Positions 268 through 23,588 of a stretch of 24,000 bases of DNA are shown in pieces. The notes under the pieces were generated by a model, which was given only the letters and a program-made list of their open reading frames with translations, was not told the origin of the DNA and made no database searches. The position numbers were made by a program, and so were the translations under genes. Numbering within the stretch: position 1 is the stretch's first letter; each line of letters starts with the position of its first letter. The stretch comes from a virus: positions 1-24,000 of the IMG/VR virus record IMGVR_UViG_3300005577_000084; one strand, given 5' to 3'.

Positions 268-403
268 TATAGCAGACAGACATGCGACATTGTTTTGAAG
301 TGCACAAGGAAGGAGGGGGTGGGGGGAAAACTTGGGTGGAGGGAAAATTTCGTAATGCACTTTCCTACGGTAGCACATATTTTTGAACATGAGGACGTTA
401 AAC

Positions 404-518: not shown

Positions 519-542
519 TCGCATAACAGAGACAAGGGAACA

Positions 543-572
543 AAAGAAAGAAAGTAACACAAAGAAAGAAAA
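543..572. repeat. Purine-rich AAAGAAAG repeats
   Basis: AAAGAAAGAAAG at 543-554 and AAAGAAAGAAAA at 561-572 form two nearly identical purine-only tracts 18 bases apart. They sit at the left edge of the AT-rich hairpin region. Confidence 0.5.
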
Positions 573-582
573 TAAATTATAA

Positions 583-601
583 AAGACATTGTAAATGTCT
601 T
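583..601. repeat. Perfect inverted repeat (hairpin 1)
   Basis: AAGACATT (583-590) and AATGTCTT (594-601) are perfect 8-base arms around a 3-base loop. First in a row of palindromes in this non-coding tract. Confidence 0.65.
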
Positions 602-603
602 AA

Positions 604-625
604 TACAACATTAACTTATGTTGTA
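604..625. repeat. Perfect inverted repeat (hairpin 2)
   Basis: TACAACAT (604-611) and ATGTTGTA (618-625) are perfect 8-base arms with a 6-base loop. The ten bases 611-620, TTAACTTATG, recur exactly at 851-860 in another hairpin. A perfect TATAAT follows at 627-632, but I see no good -35 in front of it. Confidence 0.65.
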
Positions 626-654
626 ATATAATTAATATTAAGGGTATCATATAA

Positions 655-676
655 AAGGTACTTTGTCAAGTACCTT
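655..676. repeat. Perfect inverted repeat (hairpin 3)
   Basis: AAGGTACTT (655-663) and AAGTACCTT (668-676) are perfect 9-base arms with a 4-base loop. Read on the - strand, the loop and inner arm spell TTGACA (669-664), a perfect -35 hexamer. The matching -10 seventeen bases on, TACCCT, is poor, although preceded by an extended TG. Confidence 0.7.
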
Positions 677-708
677 GTTAAAATATTTACATTTTTGTTA
701 AATATTTA
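675..708. repeat. AT-rich direct repeat
   Basis: TTGTTAAAATATTTA (675-689) is repeated with one base deleted at 695-708, a 20-base offset. Tandem AT-rich repeats beside palindromes are typical of DNA-unwinding elements in replication origins. No DnaA box is visible, so an origin is only a possibility. Confidence 0.5.
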
Positions 709-714
709 TATTAT
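686..714 (+). promoter_or_regulatory. Candidate sigma70-type promoter for the late operon
   Basis: TTTACA (686-691, 5 of 6 to the -35 consensus), a 17-base spacer and TATTAT (709-714, 5 of 6 to the -10). Transcription would start near 721 and give a structured leader of about 270 bases before the first gene. A second, weaker pair follows: TTGTAC (730-735), 17 bases, TAAAAT (753-758). AT-rich DNA gives chance matches, so confidence is limited. Confidence 0.4.
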
Positions 715-716
715 TC

Positions 717-735
717 GTACAACTAAGTATTGTAC
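717..735. repeat. Perfect inverted repeat (hairpin 4)
   Basis: GTACAA (717-722) and TTGTAC (730-735) are perfect 6-base arms with a 7-base loop. The right arm coincides with the possible -35 at 730-735, so this could be an operator over a promoter. Confidence 0.5.
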
Positions 736-779
736 AAAAGTTAAAAGTATGGTAAAATATTAGCAATGTTGTTTTCTTT

Positions 780-878
780 GTAACTATAGTCTTGCAGACT
801 AAGTTACCTTCCTTGTTCACTTAAGGCACCGTTCCGGTGCATGTGCCGCTTTAACTTATGCGGCAATTAAGGTGGTAA
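780..878 (+). ncRNA. Candidate structured leader RNA
   Basis: Three stem-loops lie in a row. The first pairs GTAAC (780-784) with GTTAC (803-807) and, above a small internal loop, TAGTCT (787-792) with AGACTA (796-801). The second is GCACCG (826-831) with CGGTGC (835-840), triloop TTC. The third is TGCCGC (844-849) with GCGGCA (860-865). An outer helix, CTTAA (820-824) with TTAAG (867-871), would close the last two into a three-way junction. TTACC (804-808) could alternatively pair with GGTAA (874-878), opening the first stem, so two exclusive folds exist. It lies downstream of the promoter candidates and upstream of the first gene. It matches no RNA family I recognise. Confidence 0.4.
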
Positions 879-2348: not shown

Positions 2349-2831
2349 ATGATTTCACGTAGATTTGAAGGAAACCCGTTTCATAGTGGTTTAAATGTTC
2401 AATGGGGAGGGGGATTGAAAAATCCTTATATTTCTTTTCATTGGGTACACGTTTTTGGCCAAGAGTTAAAAAGGTTTTCAATTCGTCTACGTTTTTGGAG
2501 TTGGGCTAATCCAGTGAATATTACTAATGGAGCTGGATATCAATTTGTTTATGGAACTAAAAAGCGTTTAGGACCTAAATTCTTTTTTAATAAAGTTCAA
2601 TACAATATTGTTGAAGAACATCTTAAAAATACTCTGTCTCATCAAATCTCTTATAAAGACTTTGAGCTTCTTCAAGCTCATAAAGAAGATGTTCAACGAG
2701 AACAGCAAAGAATGAAATGTCGTTTAGAAGCTCATGCCAAAGCGATGATTGGTACTCCAACATGGTGGCAACGACAAGAAGCTATCAAACTAGGTCTTGA
2801 CCCCGATAATAAAGATATTTATGAAACTTAA
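2349..2831 (+). CDS. Unknown protein between HNH and large terminase
   Basis: A 160-residue protein I do not recognise. The first 90 residues are rich in aromatic residues (Trp, Phe, Tyr) with alternating hydrophobic positions, suggesting beta strands. Residues about 95-150 are charged and helical (FELLQAHKEDVQREQQRMK). It has no signal peptide or membrane segment. The start at ATG 2349 is one base after the HNH stop and seven bases after AAAGGA (2336-2341). The end overlaps the large terminase start by 11 bases (ATGAAACTTAATG). Its place between the terminase subunits suggests a role in packaging, but that is context only. Confidence 0.7.
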   Translation: MISRRFEGNPFHSGLNVQWGGGLKNPYISFHWVHVFGQELKRFSIRLRFWSWANPVNITNGAGYQFVYGTKKRLGPKFFFNKVQYNIVEEHLKNTLSHQISYKDFELLQAHKEDVQREQQRMKCRLEAHAKAMIGTPTWWQRQEAIKLGLDPDNKDIYET

Positions 2832-4344
2832 TGCTCAGATTATCGAAGGCTTTGTGGGCAGTGTCTTAGGTAGCCGTTTCGATGGAAAGTCTGAGTCTGC
2901 TCAATTTCATAAAGAATGTTGGGAGCTTTGCACAGGACCTGATAGGTTTATTGCTATGGCTGCTCCCCGTGGACACGCTAAGTCGTCCGCAATTACGTTA
3001 GGTTATGGCCTAGCAACTCTGTTATTTCGAGAGCGAAAATTTATGTTACTCGTCTCTGATACAGAATCGCAGGCCGCCAACTTCCTTGGACTCTTTAAAG
3101 CAGAGCTTCAGGAAAACACAGATTTAATTGAACTGTTTGATTTAAAACTAAATGACAAAGGACAAGTTCAATTTATTAAGGATAGCGAAACTGACATTAT
3201 TGTAGCTTTTAATGATGGAACAAAGTTCCGAATTATTGCTAAGGGTAGTGAACAGAAACTTCGTGGTTTAATCTGGAATGGTTCTCGTCCCGATATCATT
3301 ATGTGTGATGATATTGAAAACGATGAGCTAGTTATGAATAAAGATCGCCGAGACAAGATGCGTAAGTGGTTTAAAAACGCTTTGCTTCCTTGTCGGAGTG
3401 ATAATGGCGTAGTAAGAATGGTTGGCACTGTCCTGCATATGGATAGCCTGCTTGAACGCCTGATGCCTAACCCTTCTGATAAACAGACAGTGACCGATCA
3501 GGATGGTTTGCGTCAATGGAGTCGTAGAAAAACCATGTGGAAATCGGTTAAATACCGTGCCCATAATGAAGACTTTTCCATTTTGCTGTGGCCTGAGAAA
3601 AAGAGTGCTGATGAATTCAAAATGCTCTATCAGGAAGCTGTCGAAGATGGAAGTTTGGATGGTTATTCACAAGAATATTTGAATTATCCTCTGGATGAAG
3701 GAACTGCCTTTTTCCGACGTACTGATTTTCAGCCTATTAAACCAGAGGAAAAGGATATTCCTCTCAACTATTACATTACAGCTGACTTGGCTATTTCCGA
3801 AAGTGAAAAAGCTGACTATTCTGTATTTTTAGTAGCAGGAATTGATGAAAATAAGCGAATTCATGTTAAAAACGTCATTCGTGAACGTCTAGATGGGCGT
3901 GAAATTGTGGACACTTTCATCACTTTACAGCGTATTTATGATCCTGTCGCTATGGGTGTTGAAGATATGCAAATTAGTAAGTCTATTGGGCCCTTCTTAC
4001 GAGAAGAAATGCTCAATCAAAACTGCTTTATTAGCCTTCATACCCTAAAACATGGTGGTAAAGACAAGCCTTTTCGTGCTCGTACCATCCAAGCTCGTAT
4101 GAGAGCAGGTGGTGTTAAGTTTGACAAACAAGCTGACTGGTTTCCTAAGTTTGAAGATGAACTTCTCACCTTCCCTCGCGGTAAATCCGACGACCAGGTT
4201 GACGCTTTCGCTTATTTAGGCATGATGTTGGATGTTCTTATTGAAGCTCCCACTGCTAAAGAAGCCTCAGACCTGGAATATGAACTTGAAATGTCTGGTA
4301 GTGACCTAGCTGAAATGGGACGTAGCGAGCTGACTGGTTATTAA
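2821..4344 (+). CDS. terL: Terminase large subunit (ATPase and nuclease)
   Basis: The DNA-packaging motor, 507 residues. The N-terminal ATPase has Walker A at about 48-56 (APRGHAKSS), Walker B at 159-166 (IIMCDDIE) and a coupling motif at 202-206 (GTVLH). The C-terminal RNase H-like nuclease that cuts the concatemer shows its acidic residues in ITADLAISE (Asp322), MGVEDM (Glu381) and GKSDDQVDA (Asp457/458 and Asp461). Length is normal for the family. I start at ATG 2821, inside the end of the preceding gene; an in-frame TTG at 2797 would add eight residues. No strong Shine-Dalgarno is seen, so translation is probably coupled to the upstream gene. Confidence 0.95.
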   Translation: MKLNAQIIEGFVGSVLGSRFDGKSESAQFHKECWELCTGPDRFIAMAAPRGHAKSSAITLGYGLATLLFRERKFMLLVSDTESQAANFLGLFKAELQENTDLIELFDLKLNDKGQVQFIKDSETDIIVAFNDGTKFRIIAKGSEQKLRGLIWNGSRPDIIMCDDIENDELVMNKDRRDKMRKWFKNALLPCRSDNGVVRMVGTVLHMDSLLERLMPNPSDKQTVTDQDGLRQWSRRKTMWKSVKYRAHNEDFSILLWPEKKSADEFKMLYQEAVEDGSLDGYSQEYLNYPLDEGTAFFRRTDFQPIKPEEKDIPLNYYITADLAISESEKADYSVFLVAGIDENKRIHVKNVIRERLDGREIVDTFITLQRIYDPVAMGVEDMQISKSIGPFLREEMLNQNCFISLHTLKHGGKDKPFRARTIQARMRAGGVKFDKQADWFPKFEDELLTFPRGKSDDQVDAFAYLGMMLDVLIEAPTAKEASDLEYELEMSGSDLAEMGRSELTGY

Positions 4345-4358
4345 TTTAAAGGAATACA

Positions 4359-6398
4359 ATGGCCGATAGAGTAAAACTGGCAAACTATATTGATGACGTC
4401 AATATTGCCGAGAGTTTAGATGATGAGACTCTCCACAAAATTGGTAGTGAAGTAGCAGCTGGTTTTGATCTCGACCTTGGTACACGGGTTGATTGGGACC
4501 GAGCTATGGAGGATTGGTTGAAGCTGGCTAAACAGACAGTTGAACCTAAAACCTACCCGTGGCCTAAGGCCAGCAACATTAAATACCCGCTGCTTTCAAC
4601 TGCTGCAATGCAGTTTGGAGCACGGGCTTATCCGTCTTTGGTTCCCTCCAATGAGCAGGTTGTAAAAGCCCGAGTCATTGGTAAAGACCCTTCTGGTGAA
4701 AAGTTGGATCGGGCCGAACGTGTCTCTCTCTACATGTCTTACCAACTCATGGATGAGATGGATGGGTGGGAAGAGGACATGGATAAGCTTCTTATTATGC
4801 TGCCTATTGTCGGCACCGTGTTTAAGAAGACGTATTGGGATAAGGTTAAGAAAACCAACTGCTCCCGTCTGGTCCTGCCCAAGAATCTTGTGGTGAATTA
4901 CTGGACCCATTGTCTTGAAACTTCAGAACGTATTACTGAAATTATTGAGATGAGTCCTCGCGTTCTTAAAGAACGTCAAATGGCTGGTTTGTTCTTAGAT
5001 ATTGATTTAGGACAAGCTCCCCAACCTCAAGAAACAATCAATACTAAGTTGGTAAATGCTCAGCCTGCACAGGATGACACGACTCCGTATACAATTTTAG
5101 AGCAGCATACCTATCTAGATTTGGATGGGGATGGGTATAAAGAGCCTTACATTGTTACAGTTCATCGTGAATCTACTAAGGTGCTTCGCATTGTAGCTCG
5201 CTATGATGTTGAGTCTTTTGTGTGGAAAGAAGGTACTGAAGATAGTGACAATCCAGTTCTTGTAAAAATTGAACCTGTTCATTATTACACCAAGTTTGGG
5301 TTTATTCCCAATCCTGATGGTGGTTTTTATGACATGGGTTTTGGTTGCCTTCTGGGCCCGTTGAATGAAAGCGTCAATACTCTCATCAATCAGCTGGTTG
5401 ACTCTGGTACGTTACATAACATGCAGAGTGGTTTCCTTGGAAAGGGCTTACGCCTGAAACTTGGTGAAGCTCGTTTCACTCCAGGCGAGTGGAAGAGTGT
5501 TAATGCTACAGGCGACGATCTTCGTAAGCAAATCTTGCCCCTGCCAACCAAGGAACCGAGCTCTGTTTTATTCCAACTGATGGGTGCTCTCATCACTTCT
5601 GGTAAAGAACTGGCTTCCGTTGCTGAAATCTTTGTGGGTAAGATGCCTGGACAAAACACCCCTGCCACTACGACAATGGCCTCCATTGAACAAGGTATGA
5701 AGGTGTTTACGGCTGTCTATAAGCGTATTTTCCGTAGCCTTTCTGAAGAATTCCGTAAGTTGTATCGTCTCAATTCCTTGTATCTTAACAAGGATGAGTA
5801 TGTGGCAGTGCTCGACATTCAGATTGGACAGGATGATTTCAACACTAAAGATCATGATATTTTCCCGGGTGCTGATCCTCAAGCTATTTCCTCTACTGAA
5901 AAGTTGATGAAGGCTCAAGGCCTCATGGAACTGCTACCTTCTGGTCTGCTCAATCCTGTGGAAGTTATCAAGCGTGTTCTGGTGGCTCAAGAACAGCCCA
6001 ACTATGAGCAGCTGCTGAATCCTCAAGTGCTTGAATCTGGACAACCTCCACCTCCTCCGCCTGATCCAAAACTGCAAGAAATGCAGATGAAGAGTCAGCT
6101 GGAACAGCAAAAGATTGACCAGAAGGGGCAACAACAACAGCATCAAATGCAACTGGAAGCAGCCGATAAGGCTACCCAAATGCAAATGAAGGCTGCAGAG
6201 CATGCTCAAGATATGCAGCATAAAGCTCAGATGAACAATCTTGAAGCTGCTATTGCTCAGCATAAGCAAGCTATTTTCTCCGTTGAAGGTCAGCAAAAGC
6301 TCAATCTTCAAGCTGCAGAAGGTAGACAGAAACTTACTCTTAAAGAACAAGAGTCTCGCCAGAAACAAAAGAATATGGCGAATAAAGGAACTAAATGA
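4359..6398 (+). CDS. Portal protein
   Basis: The dodecameric ring at the capsid vertex through which DNA enters and leaves; 679 residues, in the P22-like portal size range. Near the N-terminus, YPWPKASNIKYPLLSTAAMQ and FGARAYPSLVP (about 67-96) form the conserved core start of this portal family. Residues 254-260 read DLDGDGY, an EF-hand-like acidic loop often present at this point of these portals. After a proline run near 563-568, residues about 573-675 are almost entirely Gln/Lys/Met-rich helix, expected to form the internal barrel seen in P22 portal. AAAGGA (4348-4353) precedes ATG 4359. Its stop overlaps the next ATG (ATGA). Confidence 0.93.
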   Translation: MADRVKLANYIDDVNIAESLDDETLHKIGSEVAAGFDLDLGTRVDWDRAMEDWLKLAKQTVEPKTYPWPKASNIKYPLLSTAAMQFGARAYPSLVPSNEQVVKARVIGKDPSGEKLDRAERVSLYMSYQLMDEMDGWEEDMDKLLIMLPIVGTVFKKTYWDKVKKTNCSRLVLPKNLVVNYWTHCLETSERITEIIEMSPRVLKERQMAGLFLDIDLGQAPQPQETINTKLVNAQPAQDDTTPYTILEQHTYLDLDGDGYKEPYIVTVHRESTKVLRIVARYDVESFVWKEGTEDSDNPVLVKIEPVHYYTKFGFIPNPDGGFYDMGFGCLLGPLNESVNTLINQLVDSGTLHNMQSGFLGKGLRLKLGEARFTPGEWKSVNATGDDLRKQILPLPTKEPSSVLFQLMGALITSGKELASVAEIFVGKMPGQNTPATTTMASIEQGMKVFTAVYKRIFRSLSEEFRKLYRLNSLYLNKDEYVAVLDIQIGQDDFNTKDHDIFPGADPQAISSTEKLMKAQGLMELLPSGLLNPVEVIKRVLVAQEQPNYEQLLNPQVLESGQPPPPPPDPKLQEMQMKSQLEQQKIDQKGQQQQHQMQLEAADKATQMQMKAAEHAQDMQHKAQMNNLEAAIAQHKQAIFSVEGQQKLNLQAAEGRQKLTLKEQESRQKQKNMANKGTK

Positions 6399-8816: not shown

Positions 8817-9725
8817 ATGTCTATCATTAATTCTGGTAGTTTTGCCAAGGCCCTCTGGCCTGGTGTAAACGCTTGGTACGGAAAGTCGTACAACGACTAT
8901 CCTGTTGAGTATACTGATCTGTTTGATACTTACAAGTCTAACAAGGCTTTTGAAGAAGACGTCGGTATCTCTTCGTTTGGTCTGGCTGTGCAAAAGCCTG
9001 AAGGTGCTCCGATTACGTATGACGGTGAGCGTCAAGGGTTCATTACTCGCTACCAACACGTTGTGTTTGCGCTCGGCTTCATCATCACTCGTGAAGTGAT
9101 GGAAGACGACCAATACGACATTGTCGGTCAGCGTAAGGCTAATGCCCTCGCCCGTTCGATTCGTCAAACGAAGGAAATCTTCGGTGCTAACGTGTATAAT
9201 CGTGCATTCAATGCTGCCTTTACTGGTGGTGATGGTGTGTCGATGATTAACGCTGCTCATCCGAATATCGCTGGTGGTACTTGGTCCAACCAAATTGCTA
9301 CCGCTGCTGACCTTTCGGAAGCTGCTCTTGAACAAGCACAAATTGACATTGCTGCTTTCACGGATGATCGTGGTCTGCTCATTGCAGCTCGCCCCGCCAG
9401 CCTGATTGTGCCGCGTCAACTGCTGTTTGAAGCAAACCGTATCCTGTATACGGATGGTCGTGTTGGTACTGATGCGAATGACCTCAATGCTCTTAAGAAG
9501 CTTGGTGTTATTCCGAAGTGTGTTACCAACCATTACCTCACCGACAACGATGCATGGTTTATCCGTACTGACGTTAACGATGGTATGAAGTATTTTGAAC
9601 GCCGTGCCGATTCGTTCGACATGGATAATGACTTCGATACCGACAATGCCAAGTTTAAGGCTATGTCGCGTTATTCGTTTGGTTGGACTGATCCTCGTGG
9701 TATCTACGGTAGTCCTGGGGCCTGA
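8817..9725 (+). CDS. Major capsid protein
   Basis: The main shell protein, 302 residues. It carries the blocks of a well-known podovirus capsid family: WYGKSYNDYPVEYTDLF, KAFEEDVGISSFGLA, ITRYQHVVFALGFIITREVM, SIRQTKEIFGANVYNRAFNA, LEQAQIDIAAFTDDRGL and a C-terminal FGWTDPRGIYGSPGA. These proteins are expected to adopt the HK97 capsid fold. A strong AGGAAAGG (8803-8810) precedes ATG 8817. Lysine and leucine codons lean to AAG and CTG/CTC, unlike the AT-leaning gene after it, fitting high expression. The stop overlaps the start of the endonuclease VII-like gene. Confidence 0.93.
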   Translation: MSIINSGSFAKALWPGVNAWYGKSYNDYPVEYTDLFDTYKSNKAFEEDVGISSFGLAVQKPEGAPITYDGERQGFITRYQHVVFALGFIITREVMEDDQYDIVGQRKANALARSIRQTKEIFGANVYNRAFNAAFTGGDGVSMINAAHPNIAGGTWSNQIATAADLSEAALEQAQIDIAAFTDDRGLLIAARPASLIVPRQLLFEANRILYTDGRVGTDANDLNALKKLGVIPKCVTNHYLTDNDAWFIRTDVNDGMKYFERRADSFDMDNDFDTDNAKFKAMSRYSFGWTDPRGIYGSPGA

Positions 9726-10102
9726 TGAATAAATCACATACTAAGGAATCCTGGGCTCAGTATATGAGGGATTATCGAAAGAAAAATCCTTCAAAGATGA
9801 AAGCAATTGATTTAAAGAAACGTTTTGGTATTTCTCTTGAAGATTACACATCGTTATATGAAAAACAAAACGGGGTTTGTGCGATTTGCCAATTACCCGA
9901 AAAATCAGTTGATTATCGTACTGGAGAAGTACGTTCTCTAGCTGTAGATCATTGTCATACAAAAGGACACATTCGTGGTCTTTTATGTTCTGATTGTAAT
10001 ACAGCTTTAGGATTACTAAAGGACAATCCTGAATTGCTGATTAAAGCAGCAAAGTATGTGACAGAAAGGAATTTATATGATTCTCAAAAATCAGGAGCAT
10101 AA
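9725..10102 (+). CDS. Endonuclease VII-like HNH nuclease, copy 1
   Basis: A 125-residue protein of the recombination endonuclease VII type. Zinc ligands are Cys52/Cys55 (CAIC) and Cys88/Cys91 (CSDC). The catalytic beta-beta-alpha part is DHCH at 75-78 with IRGLLC and Asn92. The leading YTSLYEKQNGVCAIC and trailing lysine-rich helix are typical. T4 endonuclease VII resolves branched DNA before packaging, but small free-standing relatives in phage structural modules are often homing nucleases. The ATG overlaps the capsid stop (ATGA). Codons are more A/T-rich than in the capsid gene. A second relative lies at 11227-11589; the two look like independent insertions or a duplicated type. Confidence 0.85.
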   Translation: MNKSHTKESWAQYMRDYRKKNPSKMKAIDLKKRFGISLEDYTSLYEKQNGVCAICQLPEKSVDYRTGEVRSLAVDHCHTKGHIRGLLCSDCNTALGLLKDNPELLIKAAKYVTERNLYDSQKSGA

Positions 10103-11226: not shown

Positions 11227-11589
11227 ATGGCTGATAAAAAGAAAGAGCAAGCAAAGCGAGCACAAGAAAAATATAGGCAAACAGAAAAATATCTTTGTAC
11301 TATGTGGAAAAATCATTTACGACGAAAATACCACATGACTATAGAAGATTATGATTCTTTGCTAGTAGCTCAAAATTATGCTTGTCGTATTTGTGGAAAG
11401 ATTGGAGCTGATCGAGGATGGTTAACTAAAAGACAACGGATAAATTTATTTGTTGATCATTGTCATATCACAGGTAAAATCAGAGGCCTTCTTTGTCACA
11501 ACTGTAATGCCGGTTTAGGTATGTTTACAGATTCTATAGATACCCTGAGCAATGCAATTGCTTACCTAAAGGAGAATTCCCTTGAGTGA
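11227..11589 (+). CDS. Endonuclease VII-like HNH nuclease, copy 2
   Basis: A 120-residue protein with the same architecture as the copy at 9725-10102: a basic helical start, YDSLLVAQNYACRICGK (Cys53/Cys56), VDHCHITGKIRGLLCHNCN (Asp77, His78, Cys79, His80, Cys90/Cys93, Asn94) and a C-terminal helix. Outside this core the two differ a good deal, so they are not a recent duplication. Homing activity or DNA branch resolution are the alternatives. AAAGGAA precedes ATG 11227. The end overlaps the next gene, which starts at TTG inside its last codons. The A/T-rich codons stand out against the fibre gene that follows. Confidence 0.85.
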   Translation: MADKKKEQAKRAQEKYRQTEKYLCTMWKNHLRRKYHMTIEDYDSLLVAQNYACRICGKIGADRGWLTKRQRINLFVDHCHITGKIRGLLCHNCNAGLGMFTDSIDTLSNAIAYLKENSLE

Positions 11590-19364: not shown

Positions 19365-22300
19365 ATGTCTGATATGCCGTGGGATGATTTTGCTAGTGCT
19401 TCGTCTAATAATGATGCTGCTCCTTGGGAGGAGTTTAAATCTGGTGAAGCCCCTTGGGAGGCTTTTGCTCCGCAACAAGAAGAAGCTCCTTATAGCAATG
19501 AACATCTACGTACTAAATATGTAGAGCCCGAAGGACTTGGAAAGAAAGCTTTGGGTGTTGCGGAAGCTGGGGGCACGCTAGCCTCTGGCTTTTTAGCTCC
19601 CTTAGCTGGTGTGCTTGGTGGGGGTATGGCTGCACTTAATAATGTGACGGCTGGACGTCCTGCTAATTTCCGAGACACCGCAGAATCCATTGCAAATGCA
19701 TTAACCTACCAGCCCCGTACTGAAACTGGTCAAAACATTATGGAAGCCTTGGAGCCTGCTCTTATTGGAATGCAGGCCCTTGGTCCTACGGGCTATCATG
19801 TCCCTGCTTATGTACCTCCCGCCATTGGTATGGCACGGGGGAAGGTGGCTGCTCTTCGTGCAGGGGAAATTCCCACGGGTGAAGTGAAGCTTATTCCGAA
19901 GGACCGGGCAAATGAAGTGCCCGCTCCAAAGGAAATGCTTACACAGCAAGCAGAAATGTTTCCTGAAACTCTTGCCAATCCGGAAGGCCAAGCATCGCCG
20001 TATAATGCAGGCACTGTTGGTACTACGGAACCTCTTCGTTTCCGCCAAAGCCAGCAGCGTGAGCTGCAGCTGGACAATCCTGAAACTTTACAAGTTACAC
20101 GAGAAGGTGTAGCTATTCCTGAAAGTCAAGCTGAACCTGCATTACAAGCCCGTGAGCGCCAACAAGATGCCTTAATGAAGGAGATGGATGCACAGCTGGA
20201 AGCTCAGAAACAAGCTGACCTTTTGGCTGCGGAACAGGCTAATTTGTTTGAGCCCTACACTAACAGCCACCGTGCTTATGACCAACTGGGAAATGAGCGG
20301 CGTCCGCTGACGTTTGAAGAGTACAAAGCTACTGTTGAAAATCTGTCAAAGGAAGAAACCACTCGCTACCAAACCCCTGAGGATTTACGTGCTGGGTATG
20401 AGCAATACAAGGATTCGTTAAAGCAGGATGGGCTATTTGATAGCTCCAGCCATGTCTACGATACTCCGCCTTCTGCTAAACAAATTGCAGCGGCTGAAAA
20501 GCCCAGTGCGATTAAGGCTGTAGCATCTCGTGGTATTGACATTGTAGATGGTGAGAATGGTATTCAAGCTGTTAAGAATGGCAAAGTCATTGGACGTCTA
20601 GAACCGAACATTACGCCTGAACAGGCTAAGATGATTGGGGAACCAGCCTCGGTTGACATTGTTAAGGTTGATCCACTGTTTCAAGGACAGAAGGTTGGTG
20701 CTGCTCTATACGAACGGTTTTTTGAGAAGTATGATGGGAACATTGTTCCTTCTGGAAAAACTACCCAAGATGCTTGGAATGTTTGGAAGAGTCGTTATCC
20801 TGATAAGGTAGATGAGTTTGTCCGTGCCGAAGCTGCACGTATTAACAGTGGTGCTCCTATGGAGCAAGTGCTGTCTAATGTAACAGACAAGAAAATTGCC
20901 CAGCTTATTAGTGATGCTGTTTCAGAAGCAATGAAAGCCCCCACAGTGTCAAACTGGGAGGCTCGTAGGCGGGCGGGTAAGAAACAAGGTGGCTTCATCT
21001 TAATGCCTGGGAAGAACAGGGATCAACGTACCATTCGTGAGAAGCTTCCTGAAATCTTTCCTGAAACGCTGTCCCCTGAAGAATGGCTGGCTAAGAATCA
21101 AGCTGCTGCTGACACTAAGCCTCTACTCAATCCCTTTACGAAGGGCGGGTTGTACCAAGCTCTGAAAACAGGTAATCCCCTTATTAAGCGTGTGACTGAA
21201 CGGTTCCGTGAGGCAACTCAAACGTCACAAGCTATGATTAGGGACATTATTCATGACAGCATGGCTCCCGCATGGCGTAGTTTGAGCAAGGCTGAATTCA
21301 TTAAAGTTGCAGACCTTCTACAGGATGCTTCCAAGAAAGAAGCTAACATTGACCTAGCTTCAATGAAGCAAGCGGGTTTTTCTGACAAGGCTATTCAAGT
21401 TGTTCGTCAACATCAAGATATGATGAAACAAATGGAAGGCCCCTTAGGGGAAACTGCAGCAGCCAATGGGCTTGGTCCTGTGCACATGCGTGTAGCTTAT
21501 GCTGCTGCAATGGCTGAAGGAGATTTCCGCAAGCTTGTATATTCTGGTGATAAAGTCATTGGTGTGCTGGGTTCTAACACCCGTAGAGGTTTAGCTAAGC
21601 AAGTAGAAAAGTATCAAGAACTCCATCCTGATGTTAAGATTGGTGAAGAGCGTTATTTTGGGGGTTCTAAGGGCCGCTCTGGCACTTCTGAAGGTTTCCA
21701 ACAAATGCTGGAGTTCCTGTCTCAGAATGATCCAGAAATTAAGAAGTTTGTTCAATATGCAAATGACCTGGTTACTAACCGAGACTACATGAATGTCAAG
21801 AAGCACACTCTGGAAAAGAAAGGTGTCTTTGGTATGCAAGGTGATAGGCCTTTTGAAACTGCTTATCAAAATGCTCGGGACTTTGCTGATTCACAGATTC
21901 GCTATGCAGAAAATGTGATTAAGTGGAGTGAGATGACTAAGGCTCTGGAAGACACTAAGAAGGTGATGGGTGGGGTTGATATGCCCAACGCAAAAGCCTA
22001 TCTTGAGCAATACATTGATGGAGCTTTGGGTAAGAACCCGTCTGCTGTTGGCAAAGCTGTAGACTCGCTTACTGCAGAAATTGGTAAGTCCCTGGGTATT
22101 GGCACGACGCTAGGTAGCCGCTTTTTGAGTGGTGTCAAAGCAGTCACTAATGCTAAGCTGCTAGGTCTGAACCCCATGTTCATTGCTACTAACATTTTAC
22201 AGCCTTTTAAAGTGATGCCAGAAATGATGAGTTTCTTAAAGGCGCGTGGAATGGACAAGGGCTTTGACTTTGGTACAGGTTATGCTGCTCTTGGTGAAGC

Positions 22301-23588
22301 TTTCATTAAGATGGTGAAACTGGAACTTGGTGGTAAAGTTGATGGCATCACACAAGGTGCTCTCGACTATGCGAACAAAAACCATGTGTACAGTTCTGAT
22401 TTGTTTGAGAACAGTAATAGTACTCGACGTGGGTTTGGTTTTTATGGAAACAAAACTACACAGTTTGGTGCTCAGCAGGTTGAAAAGGTGACCCGACAAG
22501 GGGTGTTCTTAGCTATGACTGACCTACTCCACAAGAGTGGTGTTACTCCTAAGCAGGGACTTTATGAAGCCGCGCACAATTTGACAGATATTGCAATGAA
22601 CAATTACAATACTGCTGAGGCTCCTCTGGCTTACAATGCTTTGGGTGGGGCAGGGCGTATGTCTTACAACCTTATGTCTTACAAGCATAATGAACTGAGT
22701 CGTTTGGCCCTGTTTGCTCGTGAGCTTCCTAACAATGGAAGTGGGCGTGCTTTAGCAGCCAACCTCATGTCTCAAATTGCTTTTGCTGGCCTAATGGGCA
22801 CTATTGGATATACTGAAGCTGACTGGCTTACTCGCAAAATCAGTGAGAAGTTTGGGAAGCCTACGAGCTTGTCTAAAATCCTTCTGGAAAACCATGACAA
22901 GGTTGCAGACTATATGAAGTTTGGTATGTTCAATGGTGTAGGTTTGGACATGACGTCTCGTTTAGGGCTTGGTAGTGTGGCTCCTCAAGACTTAGCTTCG
23001 GCAGTTATGCCGGGTTTGTCTAGCATGGTGCAACAAGCTGGTGCCTATGGGGAAGCCATTAAAGACCCTTCAGAGTACAATCTGAAGAATGCTGTACGAG
23101 AAACTGCTCCAATTTCTATGGCTGGTCCCATTGATCGGGCATGGTTCTCTGGGAAAAGCCCTTCGGGAACTGAACTTTCTATGAATCGAAACAGAGTGAC
23201 AATGAATGCAGAACGCAATGATACTGACAAGCTGTGGAAGTCTGTAGGAGGTACTGGTGTCAATGAAGCTCGCCAGAAAAAGCTAGACTGGGAAAATCGG
23301 CAGACAGATCAGTTCTACACTGAGAAGCGTAAAGATGCTGTCTTGGACATGAAGAAGGCTATGTTTACTAACAATACAAACATTCCTCTATCTCAAAACA
23401 AGGACTTTCAGAAAGCTGTTAAACAGTATGTGAAGAACCAAGGGGACGTTTCCAACTTTGGTGACATGGTTGAGAGGATGGGTATGGACTTAAATCTAAC
23501 CCAAGATCAACTAAACAAACTGAAGAATGCTGGGAGCACTTCCATTACCAATCTCCATCGCTTGCTTCGTGCAACAGAAAGGGAATAA
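19365..23588 (+). CDS. Giant internal virion protein with GNAT-like domain
   Basis: A 1407-residue protein, the largest here, in the size range of the large internal proteins of T7/SP6-type phages. Order: three PW(D/E)xF repeats (5-9, 20-24, 30-34); a hydrophobic Gly/Ala segment (72-91); a Gln/Glu-rich helical part (about 200-300); a GNAT acetyltransferase-like part (about 385-490) with VDIVKVDPLFQGQKVGAALY, Q442-x-x-G445-x-A447 fitting the acetyl-CoA loop, and TTQDAWNVWKSRYP after it; then a long helical region with some hydrophobic stretches (near 1133-1150). I see no lytic transglycosylase or protease motif. AAGGA precedes ATG 19365. The stop overlaps the lysozyme start (TAATG). Large polyvalent-type phage proteins that combine injected and enzymatic domains are known, and this may be one. 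Confidence 0.75.
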   Translation: MSDMPWDDFASASSNNDAAPWEEFKSGEAPWEAFAPQQEEAPYSNEHLRTKYVEPEGLGKKALGVAEAGGTLASGFLAPLAGVLGGGMAALNNVTAGRPANFRDTAESIANALTYQPRTETGQNIMEALEPALIGMQALGPTGYHVPAYVPPAIGMARGKVAALRAGEIPTGEVKLIPKDRANEVPAPKEMLTQQAEMFPETLANPEGQASPYNAGTVGTTEPLRFRQSQQRELQLDNPETLQVTREGVAIPESQAEPALQARERQQDALMKEMDAQLEAQKQADLLAAEQANLFEPYTNSHRAYDQLGNERRPLTFEEYKATVENLSKEETTRYQTPEDLRAGYEQYKDSLKQDGLFDSSSHVYDTPPSAKQIAAAEKPSAIKAVASRGIDIVDGENGIQAVKNGKVIGRLEPNITPEQAKMIGEPASVDIVKVDPLFQGQKVGAALYERFFEKYDGNIVPSGKTTQDAWNVWKSRYPDKVDEFVRAEAARINSGAPMEQVLSNVTDKKIAQLISDAVSEAMKAPTVSNWEARRRAGKKQGGFILMPGKNRDQRTIREKLPEIFPETLSPEEWLAKNQAAADTKPLLNPFTKGGLYQALKTGNPLIKRVTERFREATQTSQAMIRDIIHDSMAPAWRSLSKAEFIKVADLLQDASKKEANIDLASMKQAGFSDKAIQVVRQHQDMMKQMEGPLGETAAANGLGPVHMRVAYAAAMAEGDFRKLVYSGDKVIGVLGSNTRRGLAKQVEKYQELHPDVKIGEERYFGGSKGRSGTSEGFQQMLEFLSQNDPEIKKFVQYANDLVTNRDYMNVKKHTLEKKGVFGMQGDRPFETAYQNARDFADSQIRYAENVIKWSEMTKALEDTKKVMGGVDMPNAKAYLEQYIDGALGKNPSAVGKAVDSLTAEIGKSLGIGTTLGSRFLSGVKAVTNAKLLGLNPMFIATNILQPFKVMPEMMSFLKARGMDKGFDFGTGYAALGEAFIKMVKLELGGKVDGITQGALDYANKNHVYSSDLFENSNSTRRGFGFYGNKTTQFGAQQVEKVTRQGVFLAMTDLLHKSGVTPKQGLYEAAHNLTDIAMNNYNTAEAPLAYNALGGAGRMSYNLMSYKHNELSRLALFARELPNNGSGRALAANLMSQIAFAGLMGTIGYTEADWLTRKISEKFGKPTSLSKILLENHDKVADYMKFGMFNGVGLDMTSRLGLGSVAPQDLASAVMPGLSSMVQQAGAYGEAIKDPSEYNLKNAVRETAPISMAGPIDRAWFSGKSPSGTELSMNRNRVTMNAERNDTDKLWKSVGGTGVNEARQKKLDWENRQTDQFYTEKRKDAVLDMKKAMFTNNTNIPLSQNKDFQKAVKQYVKNQGDVSNFGDMVERMGMDLNLTQDQLNKLKNAGSTSITNLHRLLRATERE

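Follow-up and report, generated by a model that had tools for sequence, protein, structure and literature searches.

A putative divergent control region with a pairing-conserved 5′ hairpin in a lineage of mostly uncultured phages

The hairpin-rich interval 540–875 of the viral record IMGVR_UViG_3300005577_000084, analysed within positions 1 to 24,000 of that record (hereafter the window, 24,000 nucleotides), is probably the central part of the only divergent control region in a phage lineage, and its hairpins would act mainly in RNA. This grading applies to the reading as a whole, that is, a promoter pair together with a protective 5′ hairpin, for which we infer the promoter activity, the start sites and the protective role. 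Host sigma-70 RNA polymerase would start leftward at a promoter PL into the replication arm and rightward at a promoter PR into the terminase/virion operon. Two options raised in the preliminary description of this DNA are thereby combined: the late control region is supported by the divergent promoter pair, and the structured leader by an arm-swapped, position-conserved hairpin where the rightward transcript would begin.

Genome context and hairpin density

The window belongs to a viral record in which the genes right of the interval encode terminase and then virion proteins, with an endolysin gene at the right end. The main landmarks are:

1146–1826, + strand: putative small terminase subunit, an early gene of the rightward operon, upstream of terL and kept beside it in relatives
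2797–4344: large terminase terL (phrog_38)
4359–6398: portal (phrog_1216)
8817–9725: major head protein

The product of 1146–1826 gave an HTH-like Pfam match slightly below the cut-off. Two endonuclease VII-like genes (9725–10102 and 11227–11589) lie within the virion operon, and directly before the endolysin lies the gene (19365–23588) of a 1407-aa protein for which neither PHROG nor Pfam gave a match.

Relatives of the large terminase (roughly 50–73% identity) and of the portal were found in many IMG/VR contigs, and a search for the large terminase in bacterial genomes found none. The comparison set comprised about 40 related viral contigs (loci labelled L###), the nearest named phages being Alcaligenes phage vB_Af_QDWS535 (OK172329) and Caudoviricetes sp. 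MW202796. Both of the latter have one divergent intergenic region, from which replication/nucleotide genes run leftward and virion genes rightward until the two arms meet at a convergent point, and in both the orientation switch occurs at the place equivalent to the interval. The interval 540–875 is the right half of the lineage's only divergent intergenic region. Upstream of the small terminase, the aligned relatives share the order G-rich element, AT-rich stretch, leftward promoter, rightward promoter, hairpin and first gene, with a GCTCGGCTAGGGCCTCGCAT-like block between the G-rich element and the AT-rich stretch in close relatives.

The hairpin cluster in 540–875 is real. Every hairpin listed previously (583–601, 604–625, 655–676, 717–735, 780–807, 826–840 and 844–865) was found at its coordinates, although folding describes the one at 780–807 better as 12 pairs, interrupted by a single bulged A, around a 3-nt loop, and a further hairpin of 9 pairs, absent from the earlier list, was detected at 681–707. 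There are eight non-overlapping perfect hairpins (stem of at least 6, loop 3–12) in the interval, whereas 2000 dinucleotide-preserving shuffles of 540–875 averaged 1.74 and reached at most 6; with stems of at least 8, four were counted against 0.18 expected from the shuffles. When hairpins were counted in 336-base sliding windows, all top values fell between 351 and ~990 and the remainder of the 24 kb was far lower, the densest stretch being 540–875 with the adjoining 350–540. The earlier remark that hairpin density far exceeds that of nearby coding DNA is borne out. The purine repeats (543–557 and 561–575, offset 18) and the AT-rich repeats (681–696/700–715, offset 19; 725–737/745–757, offset 20) were likewise present, and the interval is non-coding as described, with no recognisable gene inside and a possible 37-codon ORF (878–991) starting just after it. 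A DNA search of the interval against named phages gave no match, a tRNA search found none, and Rfam returned nothing at the gathering threshold. The single hit of a relaxed Rfam search, a sub-threshold match to an unrelated flavivirus element, was taken as chance.

The promoter pair and its hairpins

The predicted promoters, the inverted repeats over their −35 positions and the first hairpin of the late transcript are:

641–669, − strand: PL, leftward promoter; TTGACA (669–664), 17-nt spacer, extended −10 TGA-TACCCT (hexamer 646–641)
731–758, + strand: PR, rightward (late) promoter; TGTACA, 16-nt spacer, extended −10 TGG-TAAAAT (hexamer 753–758)
655–676: inverted repeat of 9 pairs across the PL −35 box; a possible operator, the repeat itself not being kept in relatives
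717–735: inverted repeat of 6 pairs across the PR −35 position; a possible operator, the repeat itself not being kept in relatives
780–807, + strand: late-transcript 5′ stem-loop; folding gives 12 pairs, a single bulged A and the loop UGC

Back-to-back −35/−10 pairs between divergent operons, the layout of a divergent sigma-70 region, were found, PL having a consensus −35 and PR being degenerate in the window and of consensus type in relatives. The PL element, TTGACA-17-TACCCT or TATACT, recurs at the equivalent place in relatives, and the TACCCT form of its −10 was also seen in L098, L082, L043, L046, L102, L107, L111 and L007. The PR of the window aligns with the strong promoter of the relatives (TTGACA/T-17-TGNTATAAT) and has kept the TG, but is degenerate and weaker. 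Overall, the family promoters are near-consensus sigma-70 promoters with an extended −10 and spacers of mostly 17 nt. Under fixed criteria, 26 of 43 family regions had a divergent extended −10 pair, whereas 100 shuffling rounds of all 43 gave none; the window itself is scored as without a pair.

Downstream of the PR −10, the relatives have a conserved AT(T)NNGTATA and behind it, in most of them, a hairpin 8–16 nt past the −10. That of the window (780–807) begins ~21 nt past the −10 and ~15 nt past the predicted start. The arms vary among relatives, for example GGCATC..GATGCC, GCTGCTA..TAGCAGC, GCACACA..TGTGTGC and CGTCTAC..GTAGACG. A rightward 5′ hairpin with a stem of at least 6 was present in 15 of 24 regions (window included), compared with 1.9 expected and a maximum of 6 in 500 shuffles, and the mean folding energy at this place was −9.5 against −6.3 kcal/mol. 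The controls were 105 promoters of unrelated phages, picked by a common −35/−10/+1 pattern; in sorting them, four loci with a small-terminase match were assigned to the family, while distant terminases (22–30% identity) were not. A 5′ stem-loop occurred in 14 of 22 testable relatives and in 13 of the 105 control promoters (Fisher p 1.6e-6), and a 5′ hairpin at a fixed position in 12 of 22 and 9 of 105, respectively (p 4e-6), with the kinship of the relatives ignored in both p values.

Covariation of the arms in relatives, proposed earlier as a check on the hairpins, was observed at the equivalents of 780–807, where the arms are compensated. L098 and L086 align here without gaps around a common loop TTTCT, and three of the seven pairs have changed on both sides while none is broken, compared with 21–43% paired when the register is slid by 1–3; this comparison involves two sequences and a weak shuffle control (46/500). 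A stem-loop with conserved pairing was found near the predicted transcript 5′ end, and the alignments indicate that this hairpin is kept in related phages by position and pairing while its letters change. About one-third of the relatives have no stem of at least 6 at this place, and so the hairpin is not essential to the lineage. The same check failed for the hairpins over the −35 boxes (655–676 and 717–735) and for 826–865: no conservation was found in the relatives, nor any counterpart of 826–840 and 844–865.

The two inverted repeats both sit on −35 positions and both contain GTAC, as might be expected of operators through which a phage regulator would switch PL and PR between early and late transcription. 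In several relatives, a long inverted TGTCAAGTAC...GTACTTGACA is made up of the two −35 boxes and the bases flanking them, L051 being the clearest case with a nearly perfect palindrome, and the motif TTCYTGT is over-represented between the promoters of the relatives (window 664–736), with 10 occurrences against 0.7 expected and 0 on the opposite strand. We nevertheless consider the operator explanation rather doubtful: the repeats 655–676 and 717–735 are not kept in relatives, whereas the promoters are, part of the symmetry follows from two facing −35 boxes, and no regulator gene was identified within the window.

The remaining elements of the two leaders are:

826–865, + strand: two leader hairpins (826–840 and 844–865), predicted to be closed by a short stem covering the ribosome-binding site of the ORF at 878
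878–991, + strand: small ORF of 37 aa with a hydrophobic, signal-peptide-like start and an AAGGTGG ribosome-binding site
604–625, − strand: first stem-loop predicted in the leftward RNA, with 8 pairs and a loop of 6; it starts ~15 nt beyond the PL −10
583–601, − strand: next stem-loop predicted in the leftward RNA, with 8 pairs and a loop of 3
543–575, + strand: two purine tracts AAAGAAAGAAAGTAA / AAAGAAAGAAAATAA of a repeat family; pyrimidine-rich UUCUUUCUUU in the leftward RNA

The rightward leader (765–880) has a folding energy of −33.9 kcal/mol, 3.2 standard deviations below shuffles (z −3.2). No Pfam match was obtained for the 37-aa ORF behind it; at the equivalent place, L010 and L012 carry longer, apparently secreted small ORFs with a signal-peptide-like start. 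The leftward leader with 604–625 and 583–601 folds with a z of −2.4, and L034, L046, L058, L073 and L087 have GC-containing hairpins at a comparable distance from PL. Leftward hairpins were present in 27 of 27 cases, with 22 expected from the AT-rich background; as a conserved set they are inseparable from that background and were rejected, and the case for 604–625 and 583–601 as conserved leftward stem-loops is only suggestive. Purine tracts alike to those of the window were seen at the equivalent place in L094, L012 and L059.

The G-rich element and the replication origin

The left part of the intergenic region is marked by one element:

315–335, + strand: G-rich element GGGGGTGGGGGGAAAACTTGG, left of 540–875; no other non-coding element of the intergenic region is as well conserved in the family

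It lies left of PL in most family loci, and nearly all of its 34 distinct matches are followed by a CGTAATGCAC-like block. In the window (315–390), GGGGGTGGGGGGAAAACTTGG and a CGTAATGCAC...TACGG block behind it are deeply conserved in the family and might serve in packaging (cos/pac) or as an origin element. As cos/pac evidence, contig ends were considered and discarded: three ends lie 52–62 nt from the G-rich element, without a common sequence. In one contig with an end near this element, the other end is near replication genes.

The preliminary description had also offered a replication origin for 540–875, in which the AT-rich hairpin stretch would serve as unwinding element and structured initiation site, and had named a GC-skew switch as a check. 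Such a switch is present in the relatives, together with the gene-orientation boundary. In both complete circular relatives, and in most of the partial ones, cumulative skew has its minimum in or near the intergenic region and its maximum at the convergence of the two arms. The minimum lies at or within several hundred bases of the intergenic region in most relatives and elsewhere in a few partial contigs. Moreover, the hairpin stretch is the most AT-rich place in many relatives. However, the skew switch is expected from gene orientation alone, and the perfect DnaA boxes, where present, cluster 160–400 nt to the left of the G-rich element, at a distance from the hairpin stretch. An origin within 540–875 itself is thus unlikely, as the DnaA boxes and the skew minimum point several hundred bases to the left, within the same intergenic region.

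Perfect DnaA boxes TTATCCACA were found 19 times in the intergenic region of the relatives, compared with 0.7 expected. Wherever the G-rich element was matched they are always left of it (L103, L072, L051, L067, L111, L049 and MW202796), often in clusters. The skew minimum falls on the boxes in L103 (2650 against 2643/2667) and in MW202796 (18036 against 18015, the only perfect box of that genome), and near the boxes in L072 and L051. The close relatives L086 and L095 have no perfect box at that place and carry short direct repeats instead. A box cluster at or near the skew minimum of the wider intergenic region was seen in several relatives and not in all. The earlier statement that DnaA boxes are missing is true for 540–875, the boxes of the relatives lying at or beyond the equivalent of the window's left edge. 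Only ~314 bases of the window precede its G-rich element, which would place an origin at or outside the left edge. Judging from the boxes and the skew minimum of the relatives, the replication origin is probably next door to 540–875, left of the G-rich element. Besides AT-richness, no origin mark was found in the hairpin stretch, the AT-rich part of which could act as an unwinding element. Very AT-rich 250-base stretches were also noticed near the DnaB/primase genes at ~13700 in MW202796 and ~31750 in OK172329, a possible second regulatory or origin site.

Proposed mRNA protection and known systems

In E. coli, a 5′ stem-loop stabilises mRNA and impedes RppH and 5′-tethered RNase E (reviewed in PMC3997798). 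By analogy, the hairpin 780–807 near the 5′ end of the late transcript may hinder RppH-type 5′-end conversion and attack by 5′-tethered RNase E, which would yield a longer-lived late transcript, possibly exceeding 20 kb, and 604–625 with 583–601 may protect the leftward transcript likewise. Taken alone, this protection step is about evenly balanced in our estimate. As pairing and place are kept and sequence is not, a protective role fits better than a sequence-specific protein site. More tentatively, the late mRNA throughout the lineage may bear an 'anonymous' 5′ hairpin, selected for position and pairing while the arm sequence turns over almost freely. Such a hairpin would serve as a generic RNA cap, within a single hub that includes the origin, the two promoters and possibly the packaging site.

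The stem-loops that follow immediately on both promoters of a long operon, and a folded leader hiding the ribosome-binding site at 878, would also suit cis-acting antitermination or attenuation elements (put/nut-like) through which RNA polymerase would be modified to read the long late operon, although we consider this quite improbable. Put and nut elements need conserved sequence, whereas the hairpin arms vary freely among the relatives; neither a conserved element sequence nor a meaningful Rfam match for put/nut elements was found, and no terminator-like T run follows 780–807. The put RNAs of phage HK022 are stem-loops directly downstream of the two early promoters, and the likeness lies in that placement; the difference is that the arms in the present lineage are not conserved in sequence and have no Rfam match. 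Finally, several hairpins have 6–8 pairs and 3-nt loops, as promoters of an N4-type virion RNA polymerase would, but this identity is hardly credible given that the loops are not conserved, host-type promoters are present instead, and no RNA polymerase match was obtained among the window proteins tested, the 1407-aa protein included (the left arm lies outside the window).

Reading 540–875 as a divergent promoter region with a protective 5′ hairpin turns an odd hairpin patch into a readable control hub of a mostly uncultured phage lineage, for which a literature search found no description of the intergenic control region. It yields testable start sites and an origin location next door, and the natural set of arm-swapped 5′ hairpins separates pairing from sequence in mRNA protection.

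Compared with oriC-like DnaA-box origins, the lineage is alike in the box clusters at or near the skew minimum of several relatives and differs in that no boxes occur in 540–875 or in the window's part of the region. The 5′-terminal stem-loops of E. coli ompA and papA (PMC3997798) resemble the window hairpin in lying close to the (here predicted) 5′ end and in that pairing matters and sequence does not; the window hairpin differs in starting ~15 nt past the predicted start. Methylophilales phage MEP401 (Zobellviridae) has, according to the available part of its description (PMC10580990), two oppositely transcribed units, and shares with the present lineage the division into replication and virion arms. 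A promoter pair, 5′ hairpins and DnaA boxes do not appear in that part of the description, and the likeness is one of gene layout. Divergent promoter regions and protective 5′ stem-loops are both already known kinds, of which the present region is a new member.
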